From a virus, in the IMG/VR virus record IMGVR_UViG_3300043446_003773, positions 1 to 29,264 of that record: DNA of 29,264 bases; one strand, 5' to 3'. Below are positions 15,193 to 28,834 of the stretch, piece after piece (the stretch's first letter is position 1; each line of letters begins with the position of its first letter). The notes beneath the pieces were generated by a model. That model had not been told where the DNA came from and did no database searches. It saw only the letters and a list, made by a program, of their open reading frames with translations. The position numbers and the translations under genes are program-made.

Positions 15193-15492
15193 TTAGAATC
15201 CCAACGCTGTTTTGAGTGTGGTCATTTTGGGCAAATATATCAAGGTGCCTACTGCAAAATCCATGGGCGGTGCTTGCAGAGTATTGGGGTTGCGTTGATA
15301 GAATACCCACCATAGGCTAGGATCTCCATAAAGGTCAAATGCCAACAGGTCTGGGCGATATTGATAAGTGGTGTTGATGGTAAAACTGATGTCGTCAGTT
15401 TCTTTTGGTATGGGTCTGTTGACCATAACGTCAAGAAAAAACTGACTATAGCCTGTTTCAAAGTAAGGACTTGTTGACGTGTAGTTGGCCAT
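15193..15492 (-). CDS. 53: Baseplate wedge protein gp53
   Basis: The 99-aa protein matches the gp53 family: an N-terminal TSPYFETGYSQFFLDVMVNR segment, a TTYQYRPDLLAFDLYGDPSL core, and WWVFYQRNPNTLQAPPMDFA followed by GTLIYLP. The last part corresponds to the LysM-like domain by which gp53 clips neighbouring wedges together. T4 gp53 is about twice as long, so this looks like a minimal version with the conserved core only. A GGAGG ribosome-binding site lies 11 bases upstream inside the end of the preceding gene, and the ATG overlaps its TAA by one base (TAATG), implying coupled translation. Confidence 0.88.
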   Translation of the reverse strand: MANYTSTSPYFETGYSQFFLDVMVNRPIPKETDDISFTINTTYQYRPDLLAFDLYGDPSLWWVFYQRNPNTLQAPPMDFAVGTLIYLPKMTTLKTALGF

Positions 15493-18400
15493 TACCAGAA
15501 TCCTCCTTTGAGTAGGTCACCATTGGCAAAGCCTTGGAGGCTGAATTGCTTGCTGATTTGAGCACGAGTTTGTGCAGGTATAAGTGTAATATCAATTTCC
15601 ATTTTTGTAGGCACATAACTGGCCGGTGTGTTGTTGGTCACACTGCCCACAACAGTATTTGGTGCCGGCGTCTGTGGCTGAGCACCTTTGGGCAACAGCG
15701 CATTGATCAATCTATTCAATCCGGCAAGGTTACCGCCTGCGGGCAAACTGGCTCCTGATGGGTTGTAACGATTGGCCAAATTTAAACCAAAGTTGTTGGG
15801 ATTGGTTGTTCTTATGTAGTCTACATCGTTGGGCAAGGTGTAATTAAACGAACTAATTACCACAGGATGATCTGAGAATTGGAATTCGCCAAAACCGTTC
15901 AGCAAACACACAGGCGGAGGAGTGCCGCGCTGTGGATCTTGTCCGTAAAACATTTTGGTGGCTGATCTAAAGAAATGTATCACAGCCAAGAGATAATTGG
16001 CTTCTGTGGTATTTTGCGCTGTAAATGTGCCACGAATCTGAATGTCGCCCACTCTAGAGTTTTTGTAAAACAAACCACGATAGTTTGAATGCACCAAATC
16101 ATACTGTTCATAATTGGCTGTGTACTGTGTGGAGATAGTTGGTGTGTAAGGAAATATCACACCATCTGTGCCCGAGCCGGCTCTCAAAGGCGCCAGTATT
16201 CCTGGATTTTCAGCGTTGTACAAATACTTGGCTCCGGGTGCTAGACTCAGTCTCACACGCCAGTCAGTGTTGCCCGGCTGTTTGTAGCGTGCCTGAATTG
16301 TGGCTTGCTTCTGAGCCAGTGCTTTGGTAGCGGCTTCCTGCGATCCTTTTTCCTGTGCCGCAAAGGCAGCATCGGTTCCAAATTCCGATCCCTGGGCGGT
16401 TGTGCCACCACCGCCCACACCAGCGTCTTCATCAGGATTTAAGGCATAGGGTTCTTCTTGTGGAGGACCATCCGGTTCAGCGCCGGGGGGTAGTTCTAGT
16501 CCGCCTTGATTGGCATCAACTGCATCGGGGTTGAATACTGACTCTTCTCCGGCGTTGAAGGTTTGGCCAGGATCAAATACATTTTCTCCAGGATCCACGC
16601 CTGGTTCAACATCAGTGGCTTGTTCGGCCAGTACACGTCGTTCTTCGGCCTGGCGCTCTTCGGCCTGAGCCACTTCTTCATCAGACAGCACAGGCACATC
16701 TTCGGCTGTAAGTTCGGCTGGTTGTTCGTTGTCCAGTGCCTGTTGTGCTTCAAATCTTGCTTGCTCAAATGGATCAGAGTTGGGGTCAACATTGGCCGGA
16801 TCGAACACACTTTCTTCGTTGGCGTTGAATGTTTGTCCTGGATCGAATACATTTTCACCCACATCTTGTGTTGGATCAAACACTGACTCTTCGGTAGCAG
16901 GACCGTTGTAGGTTTGCCCTGGATCAAATACATTTTCTCCCACATCTTGAGTAGGATCAAACACACTTTCCATTTGCGGCTGACCAACCCCAGGATCAAA
17001 TACATTTTCTTGTATGCCTGGATCAGTCAAAGCACTGACTTCAGTGGGTGACTGTCCGTCGCCTTCGTTGCCACCGCCTGCCGCATACACATTGGCATTT
17101 TGTTCAATGATGTTTTGTTGAATTGCCGAATTTTCTGTGGCTGTTTGAATATAATCTTGTTGTTGCGCATTGTTGTCCAACAACTCGGCTCGTCTAGCAT
17201 CTGAAATATTGGGATCAGCCAGTTCAGCATTGTTTGCTTCTATAATTTTTTCAGCATTGGCAATGCCTGCGTTGTTTTGCTCAATGGCCGCATAGCCTTT
17301 GTCAATGTTCAACAATGCTTGATTTTGCGTTCCTGGATAAAGTTTGGCAGCGTCTGCAGCCAATTCTCGATCCTGTTGTTGTACCTGTGCAGTGGTGGGC
17401 CCTCCAACATCAACTGCCGCGGGATCAAACACGCTTTCACCATTGGCATTAAAAGTTTGTCCTGGATTGAAAACATTTTCGCCCGCGTCTTGACGTGGGT
17501 CAAACACAGATTCACCAGTGGCAGGTCCATTGTAGGTTTGACCTGGATCAAACACATGTTCGCCGGGGTCTTGACGTGGATCAAACACTGACTCTTGTGC
17601 ATTATTTGCATTGCCATCATATCCTGCATAGTATGGTTGGCCAGTTTCTTCGTTGATCTTGAAACCCGACTGTAGATTTCCCTCATCATCGTAGGCGGGA
17701 AACTGACTGGGATCGCTGGCAGGATTGACCGCTGTGTCTTTTGTTGCTGGTCCTACACCTTTGTAATAGGTTTGACCAGTTTCTTCATTGATAGCAAATC
17801 CTGGTTGTAGATTTCCCTCATCATCATAGGCAGGAAACTGACTGGGATCGCTGGCAGGATTCACAGCAGGTTGAGTGGCCCCAGGTCCAGTTGGGGCAAC
17901 AGCGGCAGCCGAAGCAGCCACACTTGACCCTGTGGTGGCAGCCACAGGCGAGGCAGTGGGCTTGCCGCCAAACAAGCCGCCCACTGTGGAAGAAAAATTT
18001 GTAAACAATGAACTCAGGCCCGAACCACCTCCAGTGCCTCCGCCCAGGAAATTGCCAAACAAACTTTGTATTGTGCCCAGGGCATTGTCAATGCTGGGAA
18101 AACCTGTGTTGAGTTTGCCGAACCCACTGAGAATATTGCTGAACGATCCTGGCAATTGTGGTAAACCCAGTGCAGACTGTGGCCCATTGAATAGTGCTGC
18201 CGTTGCTACATCGGGATTAGGTGTTGCGGCATTGGGATCAAAAACATTTTCTCCTACGTCTTGGCGTGGATCAAACACAGATTCATTTTGTGGTGGCCCT
18301 ACTTCTTCCCTGCCATAGGGACTATAAACTGATTCTTGAACTGTTGTGTTTGTTGCATCAGTTTGAGACACCACTCGTGTTTGGCCGCTCAGTTGTATTT

Positions 18401-19124
18401 CTGTATTTTGATTGAGTTCTTGGTCGTAGTCAGCATTTACTGGTGTAATACTAGACGACGATTGCACAGACACTGTTTGCGTTGTGGTTGTGGTATTGGG
18501 TTCCTTGATCTCTTGCGATGGACTGGGAAGTTCGGCCGCACTTTGTTGGTCTGCCAATTGATTACGTTCTCTTTGCAATTTACCCAATGATGCTAATCTA
18601 GCATCATTTTCTTCTGCAGTCAGTGGAGGCAAGCCTTGTTGCTGGCGAATTCTATTGCTGGGGTTGTCTATGTACCATTGTTTGATTTCAGCATCTTTGG
18701 CTGACACTTGTTCACCAATTTTTTGACTTTGTTCAGTGGGAATTGGCCGCCCCAATACCACTGTAGTTGAGCCACCGCCACTCACAGTTTCTGTGCTGGT
18801 GGTGGTATAACTTGACTTAACAACAGTACCAGGTGTGGACTTGGGAGTTTGAGCATAGTCTACCTGTTCAAAATTAGAAGAACTGGTGAGTCCTGCGGTG
18901 AATCTAGCACTTTCGGCTTCATCAGCGGCTGTGTATTTTTGATAGTCAACACCTGCTACCTTGCCACTGCCTGCAACAATAGGGCCCATTTGGCCGTTGT
19001 CGCCTATAGCGTAGTTGCCAAAATCAGCATTGGTGATGCCAGCCTGTGCGGCAGCCTGGTCTTCTGTTAGTCCTTGTTGGCGAAGTTTGTTAAACTCAGC
19101 GGCCTTGTTTGCATCGTATGCCAT
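15492..19124 (-). CDS. Repeat-rich giant tail/baseplate protein with ESVFDP repeats
   Basis: This 1210-aa protein is the first gene of the structural operon. Most of residues 1-930 look disordered, rich in Gln, Asn, Glu, Pro, Thr and Gly. They contain fifteen E(S/N/H)VF(D/N)P motifs (residues 281-297 and 511-866), a tandem 45-residue repeat (from residue 422), and Gln/Glu-rich helices. The C-terminal 250 residues look folded: LAPGAKYLYNAENPGILAPL, then DGVIFPYTPTISTQYTANYE, FFRSATKMFYGQDPQ, and VISSFNYTLPNDVDYIRT. This block resembles virion proteins of aquatic T4-like phages, and I suspect a tail-tube or tube-cap type fold (the gp48/gp54 niche), but cannot confirm it. The gene precedes gp53 and the hub. 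ATG is at 19124 with an AGGA ribosome-binding site nine bases upstream and a TAAATA box further up. Confidence 0.85.
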   Translation of the reverse strand: MAYDANKAAEFNKLRQQGLTEDQAAAQAGITNADFGNYAIGDNGQMGPIVAGSGKVAGVDYQKYTAADEAESARFTAGLTSSSNFEQVDYAQTPKSTPGTVVKSSYTTTSTETVSGGGSTTVVLGRPIPTEQSQKIGEQVSAKDAEIKQWYIDNPSNRIRQQQGLPPLTAEENDARLASLGKLQRERNQLADQQSAAELPSPSQEIKEPNTTTTTQTVSVQSSSSITPVNADYDQELNQNTEIQLSGQTRVVSQTDATNTTVQESVYSPYGREEVGPPQNESVFDPRQDVGENVFDPNAATPNPDVATAALFNGPQSALGLPQLPGSFSNILSGFGKLNTGFPSIDNALGTIQSLFGNFLGGGTGGGSGLSSLFTNFSSTVGGLFGGKPTASPVAATTGSSVAASAAAVAPTGPGATQPAVNPASDPSQFPAYDDEGNLQPGFAINEETGQTYYKGVGPATKDTAVNPASDPSQFPAYDDEGNLQSGFKINEETGQPYYAGYDGNANNAQESVFDPRQDPGEHVFDPGQTYNGPATGESVFDPRQDAGENVFNPGQTFNANGESVFDPAAVDVGGPTTAQVQQQDRELAADAAKLYPGTQNQALLNIDKGYAAIEQNNAGIANAEKIIEANNAELADPNISDARRAELLDNNAQQQDYIQTATENSAIQQNIIEQNANVYAAGGGNEGDGQSPTEVSALTDPGIQENVFDPGVGQPQMESVFDPTQDVGENVFDPGQTYNGPATEESVFDPTQDVGENVFDPGQTFNANEESVFDPANVDPNSDPFEQARFEAQQALDNEQPAELTAEDVPVLSDEEVAQAEERQAEERRVLAEQATDVEPGVDPGENVFDPGQTFNAGEESVFNPDAVDANQGGLELPPGAEPDGPPQEEPYALNPDEDAGVGGGGTTAQGSEFGTDAAFAAQEKGSQEAATKALAQKQATIQARYKQPGNTDWRVRLSLAPGAKYLYNAENPGILAPLRAGSGTDGVIFPYTPTISTQYTANYEQYDLVHSNYRGLFYKNSRVGDIQIRGTFTAQNTTEANYLLAVIHFFRSATKMFYGQDPQRGTPPPVCLLNGFGEFQFSDHPVVISSFNYTLPNDVDYIRTTNPNNFGLNLANRYNPSGASLPAGGNLAGLNRLINALLPKGAQPQTPAPNTVVGSVTNNTPASYVPTKMEIDITLIPAQTRAQISKQFSLQGFANGDLLKGGFW
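16527..17595 (-). repeat. ESVFDP/ENVFDP repeat tract A
   Basis: Within the 1210-aa protein, residues 511-866 carry thirteen copies of E(S/N/H)VF(D/N)P. Typical units are ESVFDPRQDAGENVFNPGQT followed by FNAN or YNGPAT and the next ESVFDP, so ESVFDP and ENVFDP units often alternate at about 12- and 18-residue spacing. The array is split by a Gln/Asn-rich segment (about 630-710) and a Glu/Ala-rich helix (about 795-840). Nucleotide similarity between copies is high, indicating recent duplication. Confidence 0.9.
17616..17861 (-). repeat. Tandem 45-residue repeat (NPASDPSQFPAYDDEGNLQ unit)
   Basis: Two adjacent copies start at residues 422 and 467 of the 1210-aa protein with a period of 135 bp. 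Each reads NPASDPSQFPAYDDEGNLQ, then GF(A/K)INEETGQ(T/P)YY. The second copy is slightly shorter (about 37 residues) and runs into the ESVFDP array. The two copies are nearly identical at the DNA level around the PSQFPAYDDEGN coding stretch. Confidence 0.9.
18234..18284 (-). repeat. ESVFDP/ENVFDP repeat tract B
   Basis: An isolated pair, ESVFDPRQDVGENVFDP, at residues 281-297 of the 1210-aa protein, about 210 residues before the main array. It is followed by NAA, as in the single copy found in the hub-like protein. Confidence 0.88.
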
Positions 19125-20146: not shown

Positions 20147-21163
20147 ATGACTAATCTATTCCGGAAGGCTGCGGTCTTCACAGATATCCACTTTGGCTTG
20201 AAAAGCAACAGCACTCAACACAACGAAGACTGTTTGGCATTTGTAAAATGGGCTACCAACAAAGCCCGGGAGGAAGGGTGTGAAACCTGTTTGTTCTTGG
20301 GCGATTGGCACAACAACCGTGCTAATCTCAACATTGTGACCCTGAACTACAGCCTGCGGGCCCTAGAGCACCTAAATGCTAATTTCGACCGTGTGTATTT
20401 TATTCCTGGTAATCACGACCTTTATTATCGTGACAAACGCGATATACAGTCAGTGGAGTGGGCGCGACACCTCCCCAATGTTGAAATATGCAATGACTGG
20501 TTTTCTAGTGGCGACGTTGTTATCGCCCCTTGGTTGTGCGGAGATGATCATAAGAGGATACCTAAACTAACAGGCCGGTACATGTTTGGACATTTTGAAC
20601 TGCCGGGATATCTAATGAATGCCATGGTAGAGATGCCGGATCACGGAGAAGTTCGCAGAGAAGATTTTGCTAACTTTGAACATGTGTTTACCGGACACTT
20701 TCACAAACGTCAGACCAAGAAAAACATTACCTACATTGGCAACGCCTTTCCGCACAACTATGCCGACGCTGGCGATGATGAACGTGGACTGACTATCATT
20801 GAGTGGGGTCAAGCGCCTGTGTATCATGCCTGGCCAGATCAACCACGCTATCGTGTGCTGGGACTGGCCAATATTATCGACAATGCACCAACTTTGCTGG
20901 CGCCAGGCATGCATGTACGTGTACAGTTAGACATTGAGATTTCATACGAAGAAGCCAACTTTATCAAAGAAACATACATCCGTGACTACGGCTTGCGAGA
21001 GATGGCATTGATACCCAACAAGAATGTATCTGTAGACACCGACATGTCTCCAGGTGAAGTCAAATTTGAATCTGTAGATCAAATTGTTACAGATCAGATT
21101 ACCAACATAGAATCAGAATTCTACGATAATAAATTACTGCTAAAGATATATCAAACTTTATGA
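20147..21163 (+). CDS. 47: Recombination nuclease subunit gp47 (Mre11/SbcD-like)
   Basis: The 338-aa protein has the metallophosphoesterase motifs of Mre11/SbcD in order: FTDIHFG (11-17, metal ligands D13 and H15), GDWHNN (52-57), GNHDLYY (88-94), a histidine in FGHFE (149), and TGHFHKRQ (182-189, ligands H184 and H186). With gp46 it forms the T4-type Mre11-Rad50 complex that resects DNA ends for recombination-dependent replication and host DNA breakdown. Its length agrees with T4 gp47 (about 339 aa). It starts 12 bases after gp55 with no strong ribosome-binding site. Its TGA overlaps the ATG of the next gene (ATGA). An unrelated gene separates it from gp46. Confidence 0.93.
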   Translation: MTNLFRKAAVFTDIHFGLKSNSTQHNEDCLAFVKWATNKAREEGCETCLFLGDWHNNRANLNIVTLNYSLRALEHLNANFDRVYFIPGNHDLYYRDKRDIQSVEWARHLPNVEICNDWFSSGDVVIAPWLCGDDHKRIPKLTGRYMFGHFELPGYLMNAMVEMPDHGEVRREDFANFEHVFTGHFHKRQTKKNITYIGNAFPHNYADAGDDERGLTIIEWGQAPVYHAWPDQPRYRVLGLANIIDNAPTLLAPGMHVRVQLDIEISYEEANFIKETYIRDYGLREMALIPNKNVSVDTDMSPGEVKFESVDQIVTDQITNIESEFYDNKLLLKIYQTL

Positions 21164-21978
21164 TCTACTGTGTGTGGTATCCCAGTGGAGGATTTGGGCA
21201 CTTTATCAATGCTGTTTTAACCTTACACGGAGAAGGTTTTGTTAGACCAAACAGCAAACTTGAATTTTCCAAAACTGGCGACAGTCACAATCTAGACTTG
21301 GTTGTGCCAAAGTATTTTCACAACCATTGGCCGGGCGGTATTGAATTTATAGATACAAAAAACTATTCAGTGCTGATTGACAACGGTATCAACAACGAAA
21401 GCGATAATTTTAAATCTACCTTCCCTGACTCAACTGTTGTTAAAATTTGTTACACAGATCATAGTTGGCCTGTGATTGCTCGAACCATGATTGCAAAGGC
21501 CATGCACAGCACTATGGAGGAGCAATTGCCCATTGATAATTGGCACAGCAACGAATCCTGGGCATTGAGAGAAAAATATTTTTTGTACCTACGTGATCAC
21601 AATCTCAGACATGCCTGGCGGGCCACTGACACCGATTCAATAGAGATAGACCAATTGTATGAGAACTACGATAAGTTTTTCGACACAATAAACTCTATTG
21701 TAAAGATACAACAATGCGAAGATCTATGGATAAACTGGCATCAAGCCAATGCCACTTACATCGTGCCAGTCAAGACTGCAACAGGTATACTAAATGACAT
21801 TGCCGATAAACGGTCATCGGATTTGACACATATCACTGACGTATGGACTCATGCTGTGGTATATTATTACATTTGGTTGAAGTTTGGAATAGAAGTTCCC
21901 CATAATGACTACGCAGACTGGTTTACAAATACCAATGATATTGTTACAATGCTAGTTAATCACGGAGTAGAAGTTTGA
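21160..21978 (+). CDS. Unknown protein with P-loop/sulfotransferase-like N-terminus between gp47 and gp46
   Basis: The 272-aa protein is not one I can name. Its N-terminus, MIYCVWYPSGGFGHFINAVL, puts a beta strand, a Gly-rich turn and a helix together in a way that recalls the phosphate-binding loop of sulfotransferase-like P-loop proteins, but no full Walker A is present. The rest is rich in Trp, His and Tyr (NHWPGGIEF, YTDHSWPVIARTM, DLWINWHQANATYI, WTHAVVYYYIWLKFG), with a helical C-terminal half. No signal peptide or membrane helix is apparent. It overlaps gp47 by four bases (ATGA) and gp46 by four bases (TTGA), so it is co-translated with both recombination subunits. It may act with them or simply be a passenger. 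A nucleotide- or PAPS-binding function is speculative. Confidence 0.8.
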   Translation: MIYCVWYPSGGFGHFINAVLTLHGEGFVRPNSKLEFSKTGDSHNLDLVVPKYFHNHWPGGIEFIDTKNYSVLIDNGINNESDNFKSTFPDSTVVKICYTDHSWPVIARTMIAKAMHSTMEEQLPIDNWHSNESWALREKYFLYLRDHNLRHAWRATDTDSIEIDQLYENYDKFFDTINSIVKIQQCEDLWINWHQANATYIVPVKTATGILNDIADKRSSDLTHITDVWTHAVVYYYIWLKFGIEVPHNDYADWFTNTNDIVTMLVNHGVEV

Positions 21979-23738
21979 TTCAAATCAAAAATTTAACTGT
22001 TCGCAACTTCATGAGCGTGGGTGCGGCCACCCAGGGCATTGACTTTGATCGCAGTGATCTCACTTTGGTCCTGGGCGAAAACCTGGATCTGGGCGGCGAT
22101 GGCAGTCGCAATGGCACAGGCAAAACCACGATCATCAATGCACTGAGTTATGCTTTGTACGGACAAGCACTTTCAAACATCCGCAAAGATAATTTGGTAA
22201 ACAAGACCAATGGCAAAAACATGCTGGTCAGTTTGGACTTTTCGGTCAATGGACAAGAGTACAGAATCGAACGAGGACGCAAACCCAACGTCTTAAAGTT
22301 TTACATCAACAACGAAGCACAAACTGCCACAGACGAAGCACAAGGTGACAGTCGTGAAACACAGGATGCCATTGAGCGTGTGATGAACATGAGTCACGAC
22401 ATGTTCAAACATGTACTGGCCTTGAACACTTATACAGAACCGTTTTTGAGTTTGAAAGCCAATGATCAACGCACTATCATTGAGCAGTTGTTGGGCATTA
22501 CCTTGTTGAGTGAACGTGCTGACGCTATCAAAGAACTCAACCGGCAGACCAAAGATGCTATACAAACGGAAGAATTCCGCATACGTGCTGTTCAAGAAGC
22601 CAACAAACGCATTGAAGAACAGATTGAAAGTCTGCGTAAACGTCAGCGACTATGGACGGCCAAACGTGACGAGGACGTGGCTAAATTAGAGCAGGCCATT
22701 CAAGACCTTGAACACATCGACATCGATGCCGAAGTTCAAGCACATAGAGATCTAGAAGCATTTCATGACAAGAAAAAAGCCATCGATGATGCCAACCGGT
22801 ATATCCGACAGATTGCCGCAGATGATGCTCGACTACAAAAAATACTAGACAAACTCAAAAAAGAAATCGAAGCCTTGGACGATCACAAGTGTCACTCATG
22901 CGGTCAGGACTTGCACGATGACAAGCAAGACGAGTTGAAGAGAGACAAACAGTCTTTGGTGCAAGAAACTGCGCTACAACTCTTGTCCAACGACACACAA
23001 CGCCAAGGACACCTGGACACTATTGCTGAGATTGGCGACTTAGGTACGGCACCCACTGTGTTTTATGACACACTAGAACAGGCCTTGAATCATCGCAACA
23101 CAGTAGAAACCTTGCGAAAAGATCTAACTGCACGTCAGGCAGATGTGGATCCTTATGAAGAACAGATTTCAGACATGCAAGGACAGGCTCTGCAAGTTGT
23201 AACATACGACACGCTAAATGAACTTACTAGAGTACAAGATCATCAGGACTTCTTGCTCAAATTGTTAACATCCAAAGACAGTTTTGTTCGCAAGAAAATC
23301 ATTGATCAGAATCTAAGTTATCTAAATGCTCGTCTCACACACTACCTAGATCGTATTGGATTGCCGCACACAGTGAAGTTCCAAAACGACTTGACTGTGA
23401 GCATCGAAGAACTGGGTCGCGAACTGGACTTTGACAATTTAAGTCGCGGTGAGCGCAACAGATTGATCTTGAGCATGAGTTGGGCGTTCCGTGATGTTTG
23501 GGAAAGTTTGTACTCGCCCATCAACTTGTTGTTTATTGACGAGTTGATTGACAACGGCCTAGACACACAAGGTGTGGAAAATGCTCTGGCCCTGCTGAAG
23601 AAGATGAGCCGCGAACGTCACAAATCAATTTGGCTGGTAAGTCACAGAGATGAACTGGCCGGACGTGTGGAGAACATACTCAAAGTGATCAAAGAGAATG
23701 GCTTTACCAGTTACAACACGGATGTTGAAGTTGCATAA
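21975..23738 (+). CDS. 46: Recombination ATPase subunit gp46 (Rad50/SbcC-like), TTG start
   Basis: The 587-aa protein is an SMC-type ATPase. The N-terminal strand IQIKNLTVRNFMSVG precedes an expanded Walker A (GENLDLGGDGSRNGTGKTT, residues 34-52). Coiled-coil arms surround a zinc-hook CHSC at 306-309. The C-terminal lobe has the LSRGERNRL signature (about 489), the Walker B LLFIDELID (about 518-526) and the H-loop SHRDE (about 556). With gp47 it forms the end-processing nuclease. The start must be TTG at 21975: the next in-frame ATG (residue 13) would remove the first conserved strand. The TTG overlaps the upstream TGA (TTGA), so initiation probably depends on translational coupling. Length is close to T4 gp46 (about 560 aa). 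Confidence 0.93.
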   Translation: MIQIKNLTVRNFMSVGAATQGIDFDRSDLTLVLGENLDLGGDGSRNGTGKTTIINALSYALYGQALSNIRKDNLVNKTNGKNMLVSLDFSVNGQEYRIERGRKPNVLKFYINNEAQTATDEAQGDSRETQDAIERVMNMSHDMFKHVLALNTYTEPFLSLKANDQRTIIEQLLGITLLSERADAIKELNRQTKDAIQTEEFRIRAVQEANKRIEEQIESLRKRQRLWTAKRDEDVAKLEQAIQDLEHIDIDAEVQAHRDLEAFHDKKKAIDDANRYIRQIAADDARLQKILDKLKKEIEALDDHKCHSCGQDLHDDKQDELKRDKQSLVQETALQLLSNDTQRQGHLDTIAEIGDLGTAPTVFYDTLEQALNHRNTVETLRKDLTARQADVDPYEEQISDMQGQALQVVTYDTLNELTRVQDHQDFLLKLLTSKDSFVRKKIIDQNLSYLNARLTHYLDRIGLPHTVKFQNDLTVSIEELGRELDFDNLSRGERNRLILSMSWAFRDVWESLYSPINLLFIDELIDNGLDTQGVENALALLKKMSRERHKSIWLVSHRDELAGRVENILKVIKENGFTSYNTDVEVA

Positions 23739-24753
23739 CATACGCAAACTTGCTTATTTGATTGCTGTCAAACACACCACTAACTTCTTTGATGCAAGAT
23801 CAACAGCCAACAATATATTTCAAGGATCTCGTGCGGTCAATGACTCATTGGTCAACAGTTTTTTGCAGGATGTTTTCAAAGATGACTTGCTGGCCAAAGG
23901 ACTCAATGACCGGAATAATTTAACCAACTTCAAAACATCGTTTACCAACTGGATACAAGCACACAAATCAAACACAGTACAGGGTCTTGATCAATATCAA
24001 ATTGATTACAGTGCTGGCACCACACAGTGTTTTGATAGTTTTTATTTTAGACACAGACATCGACGATTCAGATGCTATACTGGCGAATATTTTTACCATT
24101 TGAAAACATGGATCAGTAATCAAGTCAACTGGAGTTTCATCACTGACAGTGATCCAGTTGGCAAAGACGATGCTGTGATCATCAGCATGCCATTTTGTGA
24201 TACTGGAAGTTTGCATCCCGACTATGACAGTTTGATCAACTGCTGTGAGCAACTGGGAGTACCAGTTTTGGTTGATTGTTGTTACTATCCCATCAGCGGT
24301 GGTCTAGACATTGACGTATCATCAACATGTATAGATACTGTGGCATTTAGTTTGAGTAAAGCATTTCCTATTGCCAATCTGCGCATAGGAGTTCGATACA
24401 CCAGAAACATATTTGACGGACAAAAACTACATGACAGTATAAATTACAACAACACTCTGTCTGCTTACGTAGGGTTACAATTGATCCGTAGATTTTCCAG
24501 TGACTACATATATCAAACTTACCAACACAAACAGAAAACTGTGTGCGACTACTTTGAATTAACTCCTGGCAATGCAGTGATGTTTGCAGTGGGCGATTCA
24601 AACTGGAATCAGTACAGTAGACGTAATTTGCTCAATGCCTATCAACTGAATTTGGCTCCTGAAAATTTCAACAACAGAGTCAGCCTAGTGAGCATGTTTG
24701 AAAATTGGGATTGTTTTTTACAAATACAAAATGAAACTGAAGTTGACATTTAA
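23722..24753 (+). CDS. PLP-dependent aminotransferase-fold protein, copy 1
   Basis: The 343-aa protein carries fold-type I aminotransferase motifs in order. DYSAGTTQCFDSF (95-107) resembles the phosphate-cup motif. VPVLVDCCYYP (180-190) supplies the Asp (D185) that contacts the pyridine nitrogen, with Tyr close behind. FSLSKAFPIANLRIGVRY (209-226) has the Schiff-base lysine K213 and the downstream Arg R221, as in class I/II enzymes such as histidinol-phosphate aminotransferase. It is shorter than typical enzymes (about 350-400 aa) and its C-terminal domain is hard to recognise. I place the start at ATG 23722, overlapping gp46 by 17 bases; an in-frame ATG at 23698 is the alternative. It is a diverged paralogue of 25177-26241. 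Substrate unknown. Confidence 0.78.
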   Translation: MLKLHNIRKLAYLIAVKHTTNFFDARSTANNIFQGSRAVNDSLVNSFLQDVFKDDLLAKGLNDRNNLTNFKTSFTNWIQAHKSNTVQGLDQYQIDYSAGTTQCFDSFYFRHRHRRFRCYTGEYFYHLKTWISNQVNWSFITDSDPVGKDDAVIISMPFCDTGSLHPDYDSLINCCEQLGVPVLVDCCYYPISGGLDIDVSSTCIDTVAFSLSKAFPIANLRIGVRYTRNIFDGQKLHDSINYNNTLSAYVGLQLIRRFSSDYIYQTYQHKQKTVCDYFELTPGNAVMFAVGDSNWNQYSRRNLLNAYQLNLAPENFNNRVSLVSMFENWDCFLQIQNETEVDI

Positions 24754-25201
24754 AAACATTGTAGACGCTCCAAAGTGTAAAATTTTGTTGAGTGGTACAG
24801 AATTGTATTCAGGTCCAGTGCTGGACGACTTTGAGTATGACATCGACTTGTTGTCAGGCGATTGCTGTCTTGTGATAGAACACTGGGACAAACAGCCTGC
24901 TGACACCATTGTTCAGGATGGCAAGATTGTTAGAGATAGAAGTTTTGAACTAGACAAAATTGTCGTCGACGACTATGATCTAGAAGAACTGATTTGGCAA
25001 AGTGAATTTCAAGCACAGGACGGTAATGTGTATCCCAGTTGCTTGTTCTTTGGACCCAATGGAAAGTTTGTGTTAAATTTTCACAATCCTGTACTGCGTT
25101 GGATACTCAAGACCAGACACGAAAAGCACAACAATGATCCCATGTGGGAACAGGATTACAATCTTTATCAACAGGCATGCAAGATACTAACACAGATATA
25201 A
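24731..25201 (+). CDS. Small unknown protein paired with aminotransferase-like copy 1
   Basis: This 156-aa protein (from ATG 24731; an in-frame ATG at 24698 would add 11 residues deeper inside the upstream gene) has no family I can name. Its first 90 residues are strand-rich (MKLKLTFKNIVDAPKCKILL, then DDFEYDIDLLSGDCCLVIEH), suggesting a small beta-sandwich. The segment DTIVQDGKIVRDRSFELDKI, then DDYDLEELIWQ, matches DTVIEHGCIVADTEFRISDM in the protein at 26241-26780, so the two are paralogues. Each follows an aminotransferase-like gene, with overlaps of 23 and 1 bases. A partner or carrier/binding role for the neighbouring enzyme is an inference from this pairing. Confidence 0.75.
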   Translation: MKLKLTFKNIVDAPKCKILLSGTELYSGPVLDDFEYDIDLLSGDCCLVIEHWDKQPADTIVQDGKIVRDRSFELDKIVVDDYDLEELIWQSEFQAQDGNVYPSCLFFGPNGKFVLNFHNPVLRWILKTRHEKHNNDPMWEQDYNLYQQACKILTQI

Positions 25202-26241
25202 ATCAAATTCGCACCATTGCGTGGACACTGGCCAAGGCCAGTGCTGATGGTGTGCTAGATGTTCCAGGCGAGTATGTCTGGGCGTTTCCCAACGACAGCA
25301 AATTTGAATCTGTCAGAGCCAGATCTCGAAGTATCTTCAGCAGTGGCAATAGTATCAAAGACGTTGATGTTATTGCGTATGTACAAGGATTAAACTTGTC
25401 AAGGCATCTGTTGAATCCTTGGATAGTTCAGCAATTTGAAGAACAGTTTCCTGATTGGGTCATGCAAGGCACCAAATTCAAACTACACAACTTTGATCAG
25501 TTTCGATACGTGGGATTCAGTGCTGGCACTCAGGAAAGTTTTATAAATTTTTATTTGTTCAATAGAAACAAAAGATTCAGAGTGTTTCGTGGTGACTACT
25601 GGTGGCACATGGACATATGGCAAAAAATCAATGCTGACTGGGCCTATATCGAAGATGGCGACCTTGAGTCCAACGACATTTGTATTTGCAGTTATCCTTT
25701 TGCCTTGACCGGCGATAAGCACGAAAATTTTGACTGGCTGGTAGATCAATGCAATCACAAAGGCATTGACTTACTGGTTGATTTTATCTATCTACCCAAT
25801 AGCATCAATGCAGTTGACATCGATCTCAGTGCCGACTGTATCAAACAAATCACTTTTAGTTTTAGCAAGACATTCCCTGTACAATGTGCCAAAATCGCAG
25901 TGCGTATGTGCAAAACCAAGCCCAATGATCCTATGCAGATGAGCAACGACGAAAACATTTGCAATCGACTCAGTGCTGGACTGGCATTGGATATTATAAA
26001 TCGGTTTCCCATTGACTACAATGTAGACAAATACTATAATGCACAAACTCATTGGTGTAAAAAACTGGGACTGAAACCCACCAAAGTGGTGCACTTTGGG
26101 CTGGGCGCAGACTACACTGATTTTGGAAAATCGGGCTCTACAGCGTGGTGTTCTCCGTTCAACGAGCAACACAACCGCTACAATCTAGGCATGCTGTATG
26201 AGAATCAAAATCTATTGAAAAAACTCAACCTATACAACTGA
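25177..26241 (+). CDS. PLP-dependent aminotransferase-fold protein, copy 2
   Basis: The 354-aa protein (from ATG 25177, overlapping the previous gene by 25 bases; GTG 25144 is an alternative) is a paralogue of the protein at 23722-24753. Shared blocks are FSAGTQESFINFYLFNRNKR (114-133), RVFRGDYWWHMDIWQ, IDLLVDFIYLPNS (197-209, with D202 and Y205) and ITFSFSKTFPVQCAKIAVRM (225-244, Schiff-base K231). In place of copy 1's LRIGVR it has AKIAVR, so the Arg four residues earlier in that loop is missing; cofactor or substrate binding may differ. It could be a second enzyme of different specificity or the other half of a heterodimer. The C-terminal part (about 300-354) shows no motif I recognise. 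Confidence 0.78.
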   Translation: MQDTNTDINQIRTIAWTLAKASADGVLDVPGEYVWAFPNDSKFESVRARSRSIFSSGNSIKDVDVIAYVQGLNLSRHLLNPWIVQQFEEQFPDWVMQGTKFKLHNFDQFRYVGFSAGTQESFINFYLFNRNKRFRVFRGDYWWHMDIWQKINADWAYIEDGDLESNDICICSYPFALTGDKHENFDWLVDQCNHKGIDLLVDFIYLPNSINAVDIDLSADCIKQITFSFSKTFPVQCAKIAVRMCKTKPNDPMQMSNDENICNRLSAGLALDIINRFPIDYNVDKYYNAQTHWCKKLGLKPTKVVHFGLGADYTDFGKSGSTAWCSPFNEQHNRYNLGMLYENQNLLKKLNLYN

Positions 26242-26780
26242 TGCTGACTTTTACATTACAAACACAATCTCAACACGGACGCACCGGTCCAAGGATTCGT
26301 GTTGGCAGCACAGATACTTTGTTGCCGGCTGGGCAGTCCACTGTGGATTTTGTGATGGAAGATTTGAATTCTTTAGTGGTGGATTTTTACAGCAAAACTG
26401 AACAAGACACTGTGATTGAACATGGTTGCATTGTTGCCGACACTGAGTTTAGAATTTCAGACATGTGGTGTGATGGTATCAAATTGGAACCTTGGTTTCG
26501 AAACAGTGCTGTTTATCGACCTAGATATTTTGATGGGTTTTTACAGCATCAACCCAATGCACCAACAGAAATTATTGCTCCGTATCAATTTAACTTTCCA
26601 GGTACAATTACTTGGTCCTGGACTGATCAATTCTGGGAGTGGTATTTTGCACAAAAAAATCAACTTGAAGTGATAAATTTCCTGGACAAAGATCCTGATA
26701 GAGTGTGGAAGTTCCGCGGCAGTCTTGACCCTTGCGACGACTTAGTGACAAATATAAAACAGGCGTTAGACAAACTATGA
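26241..26780 (+). CDS. Small unknown protein paired with aminotransferase-like copy 2
   Basis: The 179-aa protein is a diverged paralogue of the product of 24731-25201. The best match is DTVIEHGCIVADTEFRISDM, then WCDGIKLEPWF; weaker similarity covers the strand-rich N-terminus (RIRVGSTDTLLPAGQSTVDF) and the aromatic C-terminal part (TITWSWTDQFWEWYF). No catalytic motif is visible. Its ATG overlaps the stop of the aminotransferase-like gene by one base (TGATG), and its TGA overlaps the ATG of the radical SAM gene (ATGA). Its position between a PLP-type and a radical SAM enzyme suggests a binding or carrier partner, which is inference only. Confidence 0.75.
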   Translation: MLTFTLQTQSQHGRTGPRIRVGSTDTLLPAGQSTVDFVMEDLNSLVVDFYSKTEQDTVIEHGCIVADTEFRISDMWCDGIKLEPWFRNSAVYRPRYFDGFLQHQPNAPTEIIAPYQFNFPGTITWSWTDQFWEWYFAQKNQLEVINFLDKDPDRVWKFRGSLDPCDDLVTNIKQALDKL

Positions 26781-28345
26781 ACAGATTTGCTTTTATCAAT
26801 CTTCCCAGCCAAGAACTTGAAAGACCACCGGCTGCTGCCGCGGCCTTGAGTGCTTGTGTGAGGTCAGTTGGATGGCATTGTCAAGTGTTTGACTTTAATT
26901 TGTTTCTAAACAAGAATGTCAGTGCCGAAACATGGATCACGTTGGAGCAATACTGGCGTTGTAAAACTTTGACCATAGACCAAGACACCAGAACAGAATT
27001 ACAAAGAGTGTTTGATCTGTTTATGGATGATATCAAAACATACAATCCAGATATGTTGGGGCTCAGTGTGTTTACTCGTATGAGTGTGGTTCCAGCGTTG
27101 GAATTGCTACAATACACTAGACCCAGACTTGGTTGTAAAATTGTCATCGGCGGCAATGGTGCTTATTCTTGGTTTAACGGTGTGGCATCCAGTGACAAAA
27201 ATACCACTGCAAAAAGTTTTAGCGAATTTTGCAAATCTCAAGACCTTATTGATTTTTACATACAAGGCGACGGCGAAGTTGCTATTATGGAACTGTTGAA
27301 AGGCAACCTAGAATATCCAGGTATCAATGGCACCAAGCCTCAGCAGATACAAGATTTGTCTGTTGTGCCTTATCCTGACTATCAAGGAATAGAACCAAAA
27401 AGTTACTTTTACACTCACGAGCCGGGCATATACATCACTGCCAGTAGAGGTTGTGTGAGAAACTGTACATTTTGCAGTGTACCACAGTTGTGGCCAAAGT
27501 TTCAATCCCGCACAGCCGACGATGTTGTGGGCGAAATCATTAGAGGCAAGAAAAATTTTGACACAAACATATTTCACTTCACTGACAGTCTGCTGAATGG
27601 CAATATGAAAACCTGGAGAGAGATCAATAGAAAACTGATTGCTGCCAAACAGGCTGATCCCAGTCTTGAGCCCATACGATATCTTGGACAATTTATTTGT
27701 AGAACAAGACTGGATCAAACCGAACGTGATTGGGAGTTGATGGCTCAAGCAGGTGCAGATTTGTTGGTCACAGGTTTTGAAAGTTACAGTCCCAATGTAA
27801 GAAAACACATGGGCAAACACTACAGCAATGCTGACATTGATTTTCATTTTGCTCAAAGTGCCAAATACGGAATCAAGAATGTATGTTTGATGTTCGTGGG
27901 CTACCCAACCGAAACTCTAGAGGACCATGAGTACAACATTGAGTTCTTGCATCGTTATCGCAAATATGCTCGTGCAGGAGTGATACACATGGTGCGCTGG
28001 GGCTATACTGGAATGTTTACCAATGCCAACAAATTGGAGTTGGACGATCAGGTCAAAATGGCCACTGACGTGACTTTTGCCAATAGGTTACGAAATTTAC
28101 CAAATGGTATCAAAGGCATTGCGCTTGGGTTTGGATGGATCAATGAAATGAACCCCAGTTTGACACTGAAAGAACGTATTCGTAGACGTTTAGAACTACA
28201 CGAACTCAGTGTGCAATTAGGGTGGCCCCAAACTCGTAGCCGTGAAGAACTGCAAATTTTATACAACATATTATCAAACCTAAACAACAATTCAATACAG
28301 GCACAGGACTTTGAAACACTGGAAACTCTTCTGGATTTTCATTGA
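26777..28345 (+). CDS. Radical SAM protein with cobalamin-binding-like N-terminal domain
   Basis: The 522-aa protein has the radical SAM cluster motif CVRNCTFC (CxxxCxxC; C226, C230, C233) within TASRGCVRNCTFCSVPQLWP, as in B12-binding-type radical SAM enzymes. The N-terminal 200 residues look like a Rossmann-type cobalamin-binding domain (RFAFINLPSQELERPPAAAA, DMLGLSVFTRMSVVPALELL, KIVIGGNGAYSWF and YIQGDGE), but no DxHxxG motif is present, so lower-ligand His coordination is not expected. Downstream elements include TNIFHFTDSLLNGN, GADLLVTGFESYSPNVRKHM and MLFVGYPTET, typical of the family's barrel. Such enzymes do methylations, ring contractions or other radical reactions; substrate unknown. 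I chose ATG 26777 (ATGA overlap with the upstream stop) because the family starts at this FAFINLP strand. Confidence 0.87.
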   Translation: MNRFAFINLPSQELERPPAAAAALSACVRSVGWHCQVFDFNLFLNKNVSAETWITLEQYWRCKTLTIDQDTRTELQRVFDLFMDDIKTYNPDMLGLSVFTRMSVVPALELLQYTRPRLGCKIVIGGNGAYSWFNGVASSDKNTTAKSFSEFCKSQDLIDFYIQGDGEVAIMELLKGNLEYPGINGTKPQQIQDLSVVPYPDYQGIEPKSYFYTHEPGIYITASRGCVRNCTFCSVPQLWPKFQSRTADDVVGEIIRGKKNFDTNIFHFTDSLLNGNMKTWREINRKLIAAKQADPSLEPIRYLGQFICRTRLDQTERDWELMAQAGADLLVTGFESYSPNVRKHMGKHYSNADIDFHFAQSAKYGIKNVCLMFVGYPTETLEDHEYNIEFLHRYRKYARAGVIHMVRWGYTGMFTNANKLELDDQVKMATDVTFANRLRNLPNGIKGIALGFGWINEMNPSLTLKERIRRRLELHELSVQLGWPQTRSREELQILYNILSNLNNNSIQAQDFETLETLLDFH

Positions 28346-28405: not shown

Positions 28406-28834
28406 ATGACATGGCTATATCAAGACACCCCAGTTGAGACATTGCCCGAACACTGTGTTGGATTTGTTTACTTGATCACAAACAATCTCACTGGACGCAA
28501 GTACATAGGCAAAAAATTAGCAAAATTTTCGAAAACAACATACAAGACAGTCAAACAACGAAACGGCACAAAAAAGCGGAAAAAGATACGATCAAAGATC
28601 GACTCAGATTGGAGAGAGTACTATGGGTCAAGCCCAGAATTGACCGCAGATGTAAACACACTAGGCACCGAAAACTTCACCAGAGAAATACTTTACTATT
28701 GCAACTCCAAGTCAGAATGCTCATACATTGAGGCTAGAGAACAATTTGCAAGGCGAGTATTGGAATCACGAGATTACTACAATGGCCACATCCAGGTTAG
28801 GGTGCATGGCTCACACATACTAGACAAAATTTAA
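28406..28834 (+). CDS. GIY-YIG nuclease-like protein
   Basis: The 142-aa protein has a GIY-YIG domain: GFVYLITNN (19-27) in place of GIY, then GRKYIGKK (30-37) for the YIG half, a basic insert (KRKKIRSK), SDWREYYGSS (67-76), and YIEAREQF (107-114), where E109 fits the metal-binding glutamate. The family cuts DNA in homing and repair enzymes. Free-standing proteins of this size are common in T4-like phages. The gene begins 60 bases after the radical SAM stop, is flanked by short imperfect direct repeats, and lies next to a structured non-coding region, so a homing-type mobile gene is possible. The C-terminus (YYNGHIQVRVHGSHILDKI) shows no extra DNA-binding domain. Its only plausible ribosome-binding site, AAGGA, is 17 bases upstream. 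Confidence 0.82.
   Translation: MTWLYQDTPVETLPEHCVGFVYLITNNLTGRKYIGKKLAKFSKTTYKTVKQRNGTKKRKKIRSKIDSDWREYYGSSPELTADVNTLGTENFTREILYYCNSKSECSYIEAREQFARRVLESRDYYNGHIQVRVHGSHILDKI

Follow-up and report, generated by a model that had tools for sequence, protein, structure and literature searches.

T4-related pelagimyophages carry variable islands in which radical S-adenosylmethionine (radical-SAM) cassettes occur together with glycosyltransferases, and the glycosyltransferases have been read as modifying the host surface (PMC7029224). We analyzed a site of related character in a 29,264-base virus record, IMGVR_UViG_3300043446_003773 (the whole stretch is referred to below as the window), whose source is a large uncultured T4-like phage. 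Four overlapping genes in the order A1-B1-A2-B2 (23722–26780), two from a pyridoxal phosphate (PLP) enzyme-like family that we call A and two from a family of smaller partner proteins that we call B, run here from the end of gp46 into a radical-SAM gene. What it shares with the islands is its occurrence in a T4-related phage and the presence, next to backbone genes, of glycosyltransferases and of radical-SAM cassettes that can be swapped; the present site differs in lying beside gp46/gp47 rather than in a tail-fibre island, and the available part of that account does not describe the A and B families or their pairing (PMC7029224). Swappable enzyme cargo in T4-like phages is already known, and what is new here is two undescribed protein families and their pairing rule; B is the more interesting element.

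Two phage isolates are among the nearest points of comparison. Pseudomonas phage Paride (Arenbergviridae) has the same order of baseplate genes, late sigma factor, gp47, gp46, hub, and portal, and its gp46 is among the closest isolate gp46 proteins (52%), but it carries no A, B, or radical-SAM cargo after gp46. Pelagibacter phage Mosig EXVC030M encodes a putative aminotransferase that is a distant A homologue (26.6% over 124 amino acids; profile E 8e-23); it keeps the Asp, the SLSK motif, and the C-terminal Arg and is clustered with hydroxylase, desaturase, and MoaA-like genes, but it is shorter (262 amino acids) and sits on a very long branch, and no B was detected in the Mosig genome. Mosig was the only match to A1 in a tblastn search of isolate phages, and nothing in the same isolates matched A2, B1, B2, a distant B, or the radical-SAM protein.

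Gene order and recurring units

The four genes stand where the initial annotation placed them, as open reading frames with likely ATG starts, each overlapping its neighbor by 1 to 25 bases, in a chain that starts within the 3' end of gp46 (stop at 23738) and runs into the start of the radical-SAM gene (ATG at 26777). All are on the plus strand: A1 at 23722–24753 (343 amino acids; frame open from 23698, ATG at 23722 likely), B1 at 24731–25201 (156 amino acids; frame open from 24698, ATG at 24731 likely), A2 at 25177–26241 (354 amino acids; frame open from 25144, ATG at 25177 likely), and B2 at 26241–26780 (179 amino acids). Members of each of the four families are found again in dozens of independent viral contigs, and we therefore regard them as real genes and reject chance reading frames. 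The motifs quoted earlier as shared (SAGT, VLVD/LLVD, and SLSK/SFSK in the large proteins; DT(I/V)..G.IV.D..F in the small ones) are present, and homology is detectable both between A1 and A2 (31% identity over 289 amino acids, E 4e-47) and, weakly, between B1 and B2 (30% over 73 amino acids, E 7e-6). Against the B profile, in which it is itself a row, B2 scores 145 bits.

The arrangement had been read as an AB cassette duplicated in tandem, and this reading we reject. The A tree contains three old clades, namely A1, A2, and solo A without B, and the A2 clade is separate with support of 97/97, making A2 an anciently divergent second enzyme. In the B tree, B2 lies on a long branch outside the B1 clade, with weakly supported deep forks (82/20 for the fork uniting all B1 rows). 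Nor is the linkage of A2 with B2 kept: the order that recurs among relatives retrieved with A, between gp46 and segE, is A1-B1-A2, and among A-bearing T4-like contigs B2 follows A2 only in the window and in one other contig (L006, also L014/L038), the cassette ending as A1-B1-A2 in the remainder. About ten loci have A2 and B without an adjacent A1, and solo A clades also exist, so an A1/A2 heterodimer is not obligatory in the family. The solo A genes (L073, L079, L092–L104) lie in clusters with GTP cyclohydrolase I, PTPS/QueD-like, QueE-like radical-SAM, PP-loop, and DegT aminotransferase genes, which suggests 7-deazaguanine chemistry.

B2 instead keeps company with radical-SAM genes. A search with B2 retrieved four more contigs; B2 adjoins the same radical-SAM gene in all four, with such genes on one or both sides of it, and A is present in none, and B2 therefore goes with the downstream radical-SAM gene (26777–28345, plus strand; frame open from 26732, ATG at 26777 likely) and not with A2. 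Several relatives carry an extra B adjoining a radical-SAM gene upstream of A1, giving the order radical-SAM, B, A1, B1, A2. The recurring units are A1-B1-A2 and B plus radical-SAM. The radical-SAM protein of the window scores 71.7 bits against PF04055 (cut-off 29.5) and has its CX3CX2C motif at 27452–27475; its N-terminal B12-binding-like region is weak, at 17.7 bits against PF02310, under the cut-off of 32.1. Distant B copies in large contigs mostly adjoin B12-type or SPASM/twitch radical-SAM genes, one of these partners passing NCBIfam NF033640, and other distant copies lie near nucleotidyltransferase-like and glycosyltransferase-like genes.

Because searching with A would bias the picture, we assembled an A-independent sample of 80 loci with gp46. 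Both borders, gp46 and segE, were visible in 73 of the 80; cargo lay between them in 53, and A was present in 4. In this sample, every one of the 12 B genes directly adjoins A or, in 9 cases, a radical-SAM gene, whereas random placement within the same loci gave a mean of 4.4 and reached 12 in none of 10,000 trials. Across 29 loci, the distance correlations among A1, B1, and A2 were 0.90, 0.78, and 0.79, compared with 0.38 to 0.53 with gp46, and the partial correlations given gp46 were 0.73 to 0.88 (0 of 2,000 permutations); for A1 against A2, r was 0.78 and the partial correlation 0.73. Co-divergence within the cassette is stronger than with gp46, and we therefore conclude that A1-B1-A2 moves as a single unit that is roughly independent of the backbone.

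Although these genes had been assigned to a phage recombination operon, they are cargo at a hotspot beside gp46/gp47 and not part of recombination, since Paride shares the backbone without them. Neighboring cargo in relatives includes a short-chain dehydrogenase/reductase gene adjoining a radical-SAM gene and epimerase-, 2-oxoglutarate-oxygenase-, amidinotransferase-, and AMP-ligase-like genes, some with Pfam support; this set fits sugar or cyclitol tailoring. A second recurrent pair at the gp46-segE site, with no A, consists of a short-chain dehydrogenase gene overlapping a SPASM-like radical-SAM gene (L159, L185, L212, L224, and others).

Predicted fold and active site of the A proteins

An alignment of 44 A relatives, A2 included, was the source of an AlphaFold model of A1 with a mean predicted local distance difference test (pLDDT) score of 95.2. 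The model matches hundreds of fold-type-I PLP enzymes; the best Foldseek match is HisC (1uu1; E 8.9e-11, probability 1.00), and the VIA comparison reached Z 22.2 over 294 residues, a level at which Pad-1, C-S lyases, and aminotransferases are not separated. With the aminotransferase class I/II group (HisC, threonine-phosphate decarboxylase CobD, Pad-1, cystathionine beta-lyases, and the RohP and Plu4 O2/PLP oxidases), A shares the whole-chain fold (Z ∼21–22, ∼300 residues), the Asp-x-x-Tyr and Ser-x-Ser-Lys active-site motifs, and a C-terminal Arg. It differs from them in that identity is only 8 to 16%, in that the usual NPTG motif has lost its Asn, the stretch reading PFCDTG or PFALTG, and in being viral only so far, with three clades of its own.

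Counting A1 residues from 23698, the DCCY motif (24274–24285, plus strand) holds Asp193, which is expected to pair with the ring nitrogen of PLP, and Tyr196, and the SLSK motif (24349–24360, plus strand) holds the predicted Schiff-base lysine, Lys221; the corresponding lysine of A2 is in an SFSK motif (25858–25869, plus strand). Asp193, Ser220-Lys221, and Arg327 are invariant in 44 of 44 relatives, and residue 196 is Tyr or Phe, which holds for both A1 and A2. Because the catalytic residues are intact in both proteins, we rejected a pseudogene or non-catalytic A copy. The model and residues together bear out the fold-type-I assignment of the initial annotation, and A is on this basis a genuine PLP protein family. 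Structural scores do not separate transaminases, decarboxylases, lyases, and O2-dependent oxidases, for which reason we can only infer the reaction.

A1 scores 14.3 bits against Pfam PF00155, below the gathering score of 19.7, and A2 is not listed; 24 of the 44 relatives match this family, with a best E of 3.2e-6. A search of the PDB with the A profile returned weak aminotransferase matches only (best 7n79, E 0.0014). No NCBIfam equivalog matched above cut-off, PHROGs and PADLOC hold no family for A or B, and the PADLOC defence models gave no match at E 0.01 to A1, B1, A2, B2, or the radical-SAM protein. In bacterial and archaeal genome contigs we found no relative of A or of the radical-SAM protein, in scans that each used few peptide patterns and that distant relatives could escape.

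The B proteins and carbohydrate-binding folds

The B1 model (pLDDT 92.6) is a predicted beta-sandwich for which the CBM60/CBM36 calcium-dependent carbohydrate-binding fold alone gives a clear structural match. In the VIA comparison, 2xfd gave Z 9.9 (root-mean-square deviation 2.6, 97 residues) and 2xhh gave Z 9.8, the two alignments spanning 97 to 104 residues, and the next unrelated fold stood at Z 5.7; Foldseek placed both structures within the top three (probability 0.99–1.00, E about 0.09). B resembles these modules further in a conserved Asp66 within a D-R-S/N-like stretch. It departs from them as a stand-alone phage protein with C-terminal helices, paired with radical-SAM or PLP genes and not fused to a glycoside hydrolase.

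Two Asp side chains, those of D367 and D372, coordinate the sugar-binding Ca2+ in a CBM36 structure (PMC9165906). Among 38 B relatives, Asp66 is kept in more than 90% and no second Asp is conserved, and an invariant Lys51 lies near the expected place of the other ligand, the first, by a correspondence drawn by eye. The small partner proteins remain as nameless as they were first described, with no name in Pfam, PHROG, or PADLOC. A sequence-profile search of the PDB with B gave nothing meaningful, and three unnamed uncultured-phage proteins in BFVD are B relatives.

A proposed role for the modules and the alternatives to it

The reading we favor, at a probability of roughly 40%, is that these genes are swappable glycan- or sugar-tailoring modules, each enzyme having its own lectin-fold partner. 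The gp46-segE site in a group of large T4-related phages would then be a cargo hotspot for interchangeable enzyme modules, two of which are found here. The first, A1-B1-A2, would combine two PLP enzymes with one CBM60-fold protein; A1 and A2 are most likely transaminases, acting in successive steps or on two keto intermediates or substrates. The second would combine B2 with a radical-SAM enzyme bearing a B12-binding-like domain. B would be a dedicated enzyme partner and, judging by its fold, would probably bind a sugar, or an acceptor bearing one, and keep it in place for the enzyme, which would bring A and B into physical contact. An amine added by A, and possibly a methyl added by the radical-SAM enzyme, would be placed on a glycan or nucleotide sugar, and the outcome could be a changed host surface, virion, or DNA decoration. 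Aminoglycoside pathways use radical-SAM, dehydrogenase, and PLP steps on one sugar, and we propose them as a parallel to this cargo.

Several results weigh against this reading. The A fold also spans decarboxylases, C-S lyases, and O2-dependent oxidases, so that transamination is not given. The sugar aminotransferases known to date are mostly of the DegT family, and A has no sequence resemblance to that family. By sequence, B is not a CBM60 member: it falls under the Pfam CBM60 (PF16841) cut-off, weak matches came from 2 of 29 relatives (best E 0.0076), none of 10 distant B proteins match, and none matched in 15 viral records. With one possible calcium-ligand Asp (D66) and the invariant Lys51 near the place of the other, sugar or calcium binding may have been lost. 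Finally, the glycosyltransferase- and sulfotransferase-like neighbors were called by eye and have no Pfam or NCBIfam match.

In a wider and more tentative form, B would represent a new phage accessory class, a lectin-fold adaptor serving radical-SAM and PLP enzymes as an obligatory partner specific to each enzyme (or as the modified carrier), and T4-like phages would swap enzyme and adaptor together, diversifying the chemistry on one carrier molecule. Large T4-like phages encode many radical-SAM and other tailoring enzymes, and B, which accompanies such enzymes across genomes, offers a way to find their targets: a glycan bound by B would identify the acceptor. A1-B1-A2 is compact, well conserved, and expressible and is thus directly testable. 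Of the original interpretation, then, the PLP fold, the nameless partner, and an undescribed modification pathway, which we judge plausible, are retained, and the tandem duplication is not.

One alternative is that the B proteins are substrates, a scaffold or precursor modified by the radical-SAM and PLP enzymes in a protein-maturation system or one like those of ribosomally synthesized and post-translationally modified peptides (RiPPs). Each enzyme module does have one adjoining B, one Lys and one Gly are invariant in B, the SPASM/twitch partners of B resemble peptide maturases, and the highest-scoring NCBIfam model for the radical-SAM protein describes a RiPP C-methyltransferase subfamily (68 bits, much below the cut-off of 282). 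However, B is predicted to be compact and globular to its C terminus, with no variable core region and no conserved Cys or Ser, a single B1 is common to two different A enzymes, and neither a cleavage nor an export gene was detected next to B, and we consider this explanation unlikely.

We give just as little credence to an ordinary auxiliary metabolic set, for an amino acid or cofactor, with B structural or regulatory and unrelated to sugar. HisC- and C-S-lyase-type folds score as high as any against A, and Rieske-type and TctC-like genes, called by eye, occur in nearby cargo of one relative; against this, no NCBIfam equivalog passed its cut-off, and a metabolic shunt does not explain why B accompanies several kinds of radical-SAM gene.

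Less likely again is that the genes make a hypermodified DNA base. DNA modification is frequent in T4-related phages, and thymidine hypermodification in phages uses PLP and radical-SAM steps; the GTP cyclohydrolase, PTPS (QueD-like), and QueE-like neighbors of solo A would also fit 7-deazaguanine chemistry. Yet in the T4-like group A1-B1-A2 was seen to have no 7-deazaguanine genes next to it; of 14 relatives, many with incomplete records, only 2 carried a gene of the thymidylate-synthase family, which hydroxymethyl-uracil routes would be expected to include; and the known routes have no partner with a sugar-binding fold. Least likely of all is an obligate A1/A2 heterodimer with B1 as a subunit, for although fold-type-I PLP enzymes have their active sites at dimer interfaces and A1 and A2 co-diverge within one overlapping gene chain, linkage alone also yields co-divergence, each protein has a full catalytic set, and the A2 loci without A1 and the solo A clades described above stand against it.

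Flanking genes and other features of the window

The cassette is surrounded by a T4-type backbone with a late sigma factor and the gp47/gp46 recombination nuclease subunits; among isolates, these subunits are closest to those of Pseudomonas phages of the Paride/PA5oct kind. The gp46-like subunit (21975–23738, plus strand; 52% identity to the Paride SbcC-like subunit) bounds the cargo site on its upstream side. Downstream, the site ends in most relatives at a SegE-like GIY-YIG gene, here at 28406–28834 on the plus strand (PF19835, 115 bits), which is outside the pathway itself; its best PHROG match is PHROG 447 (NAD synthetase), in conflict with the Pfam SegE GIY-YIG assignment, and the PHROG label looks misannotated. 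No RNA families or tRNAs were found in the window.

On the minus strand, there is a predicted virion protein of 1,210 amino acids (15492–19124) in which an ExVF(D/N)P motif, for example ESVFDPRQDVGENVFDPGQT, recurs about 15 times at scattered positions; this is a repeat at the protein level, with no tandem array in the DNA. The gp47-gp46 interval also carries cargo. In L006 (3559–7803), the genes called there by eye encode an AMP-ligase-like protein, a TctC-like receptor, and the two subunits of a Rieske-type dioxygenase. In the window it holds a gene for 272 amino acids (21160–21978, plus strand) with no Pfam, NCBIfam, or PADLOC match, whose glycine-rich N terminus looks sulfotransferase-like by eye and which recurs in relatives as cargo at that position.

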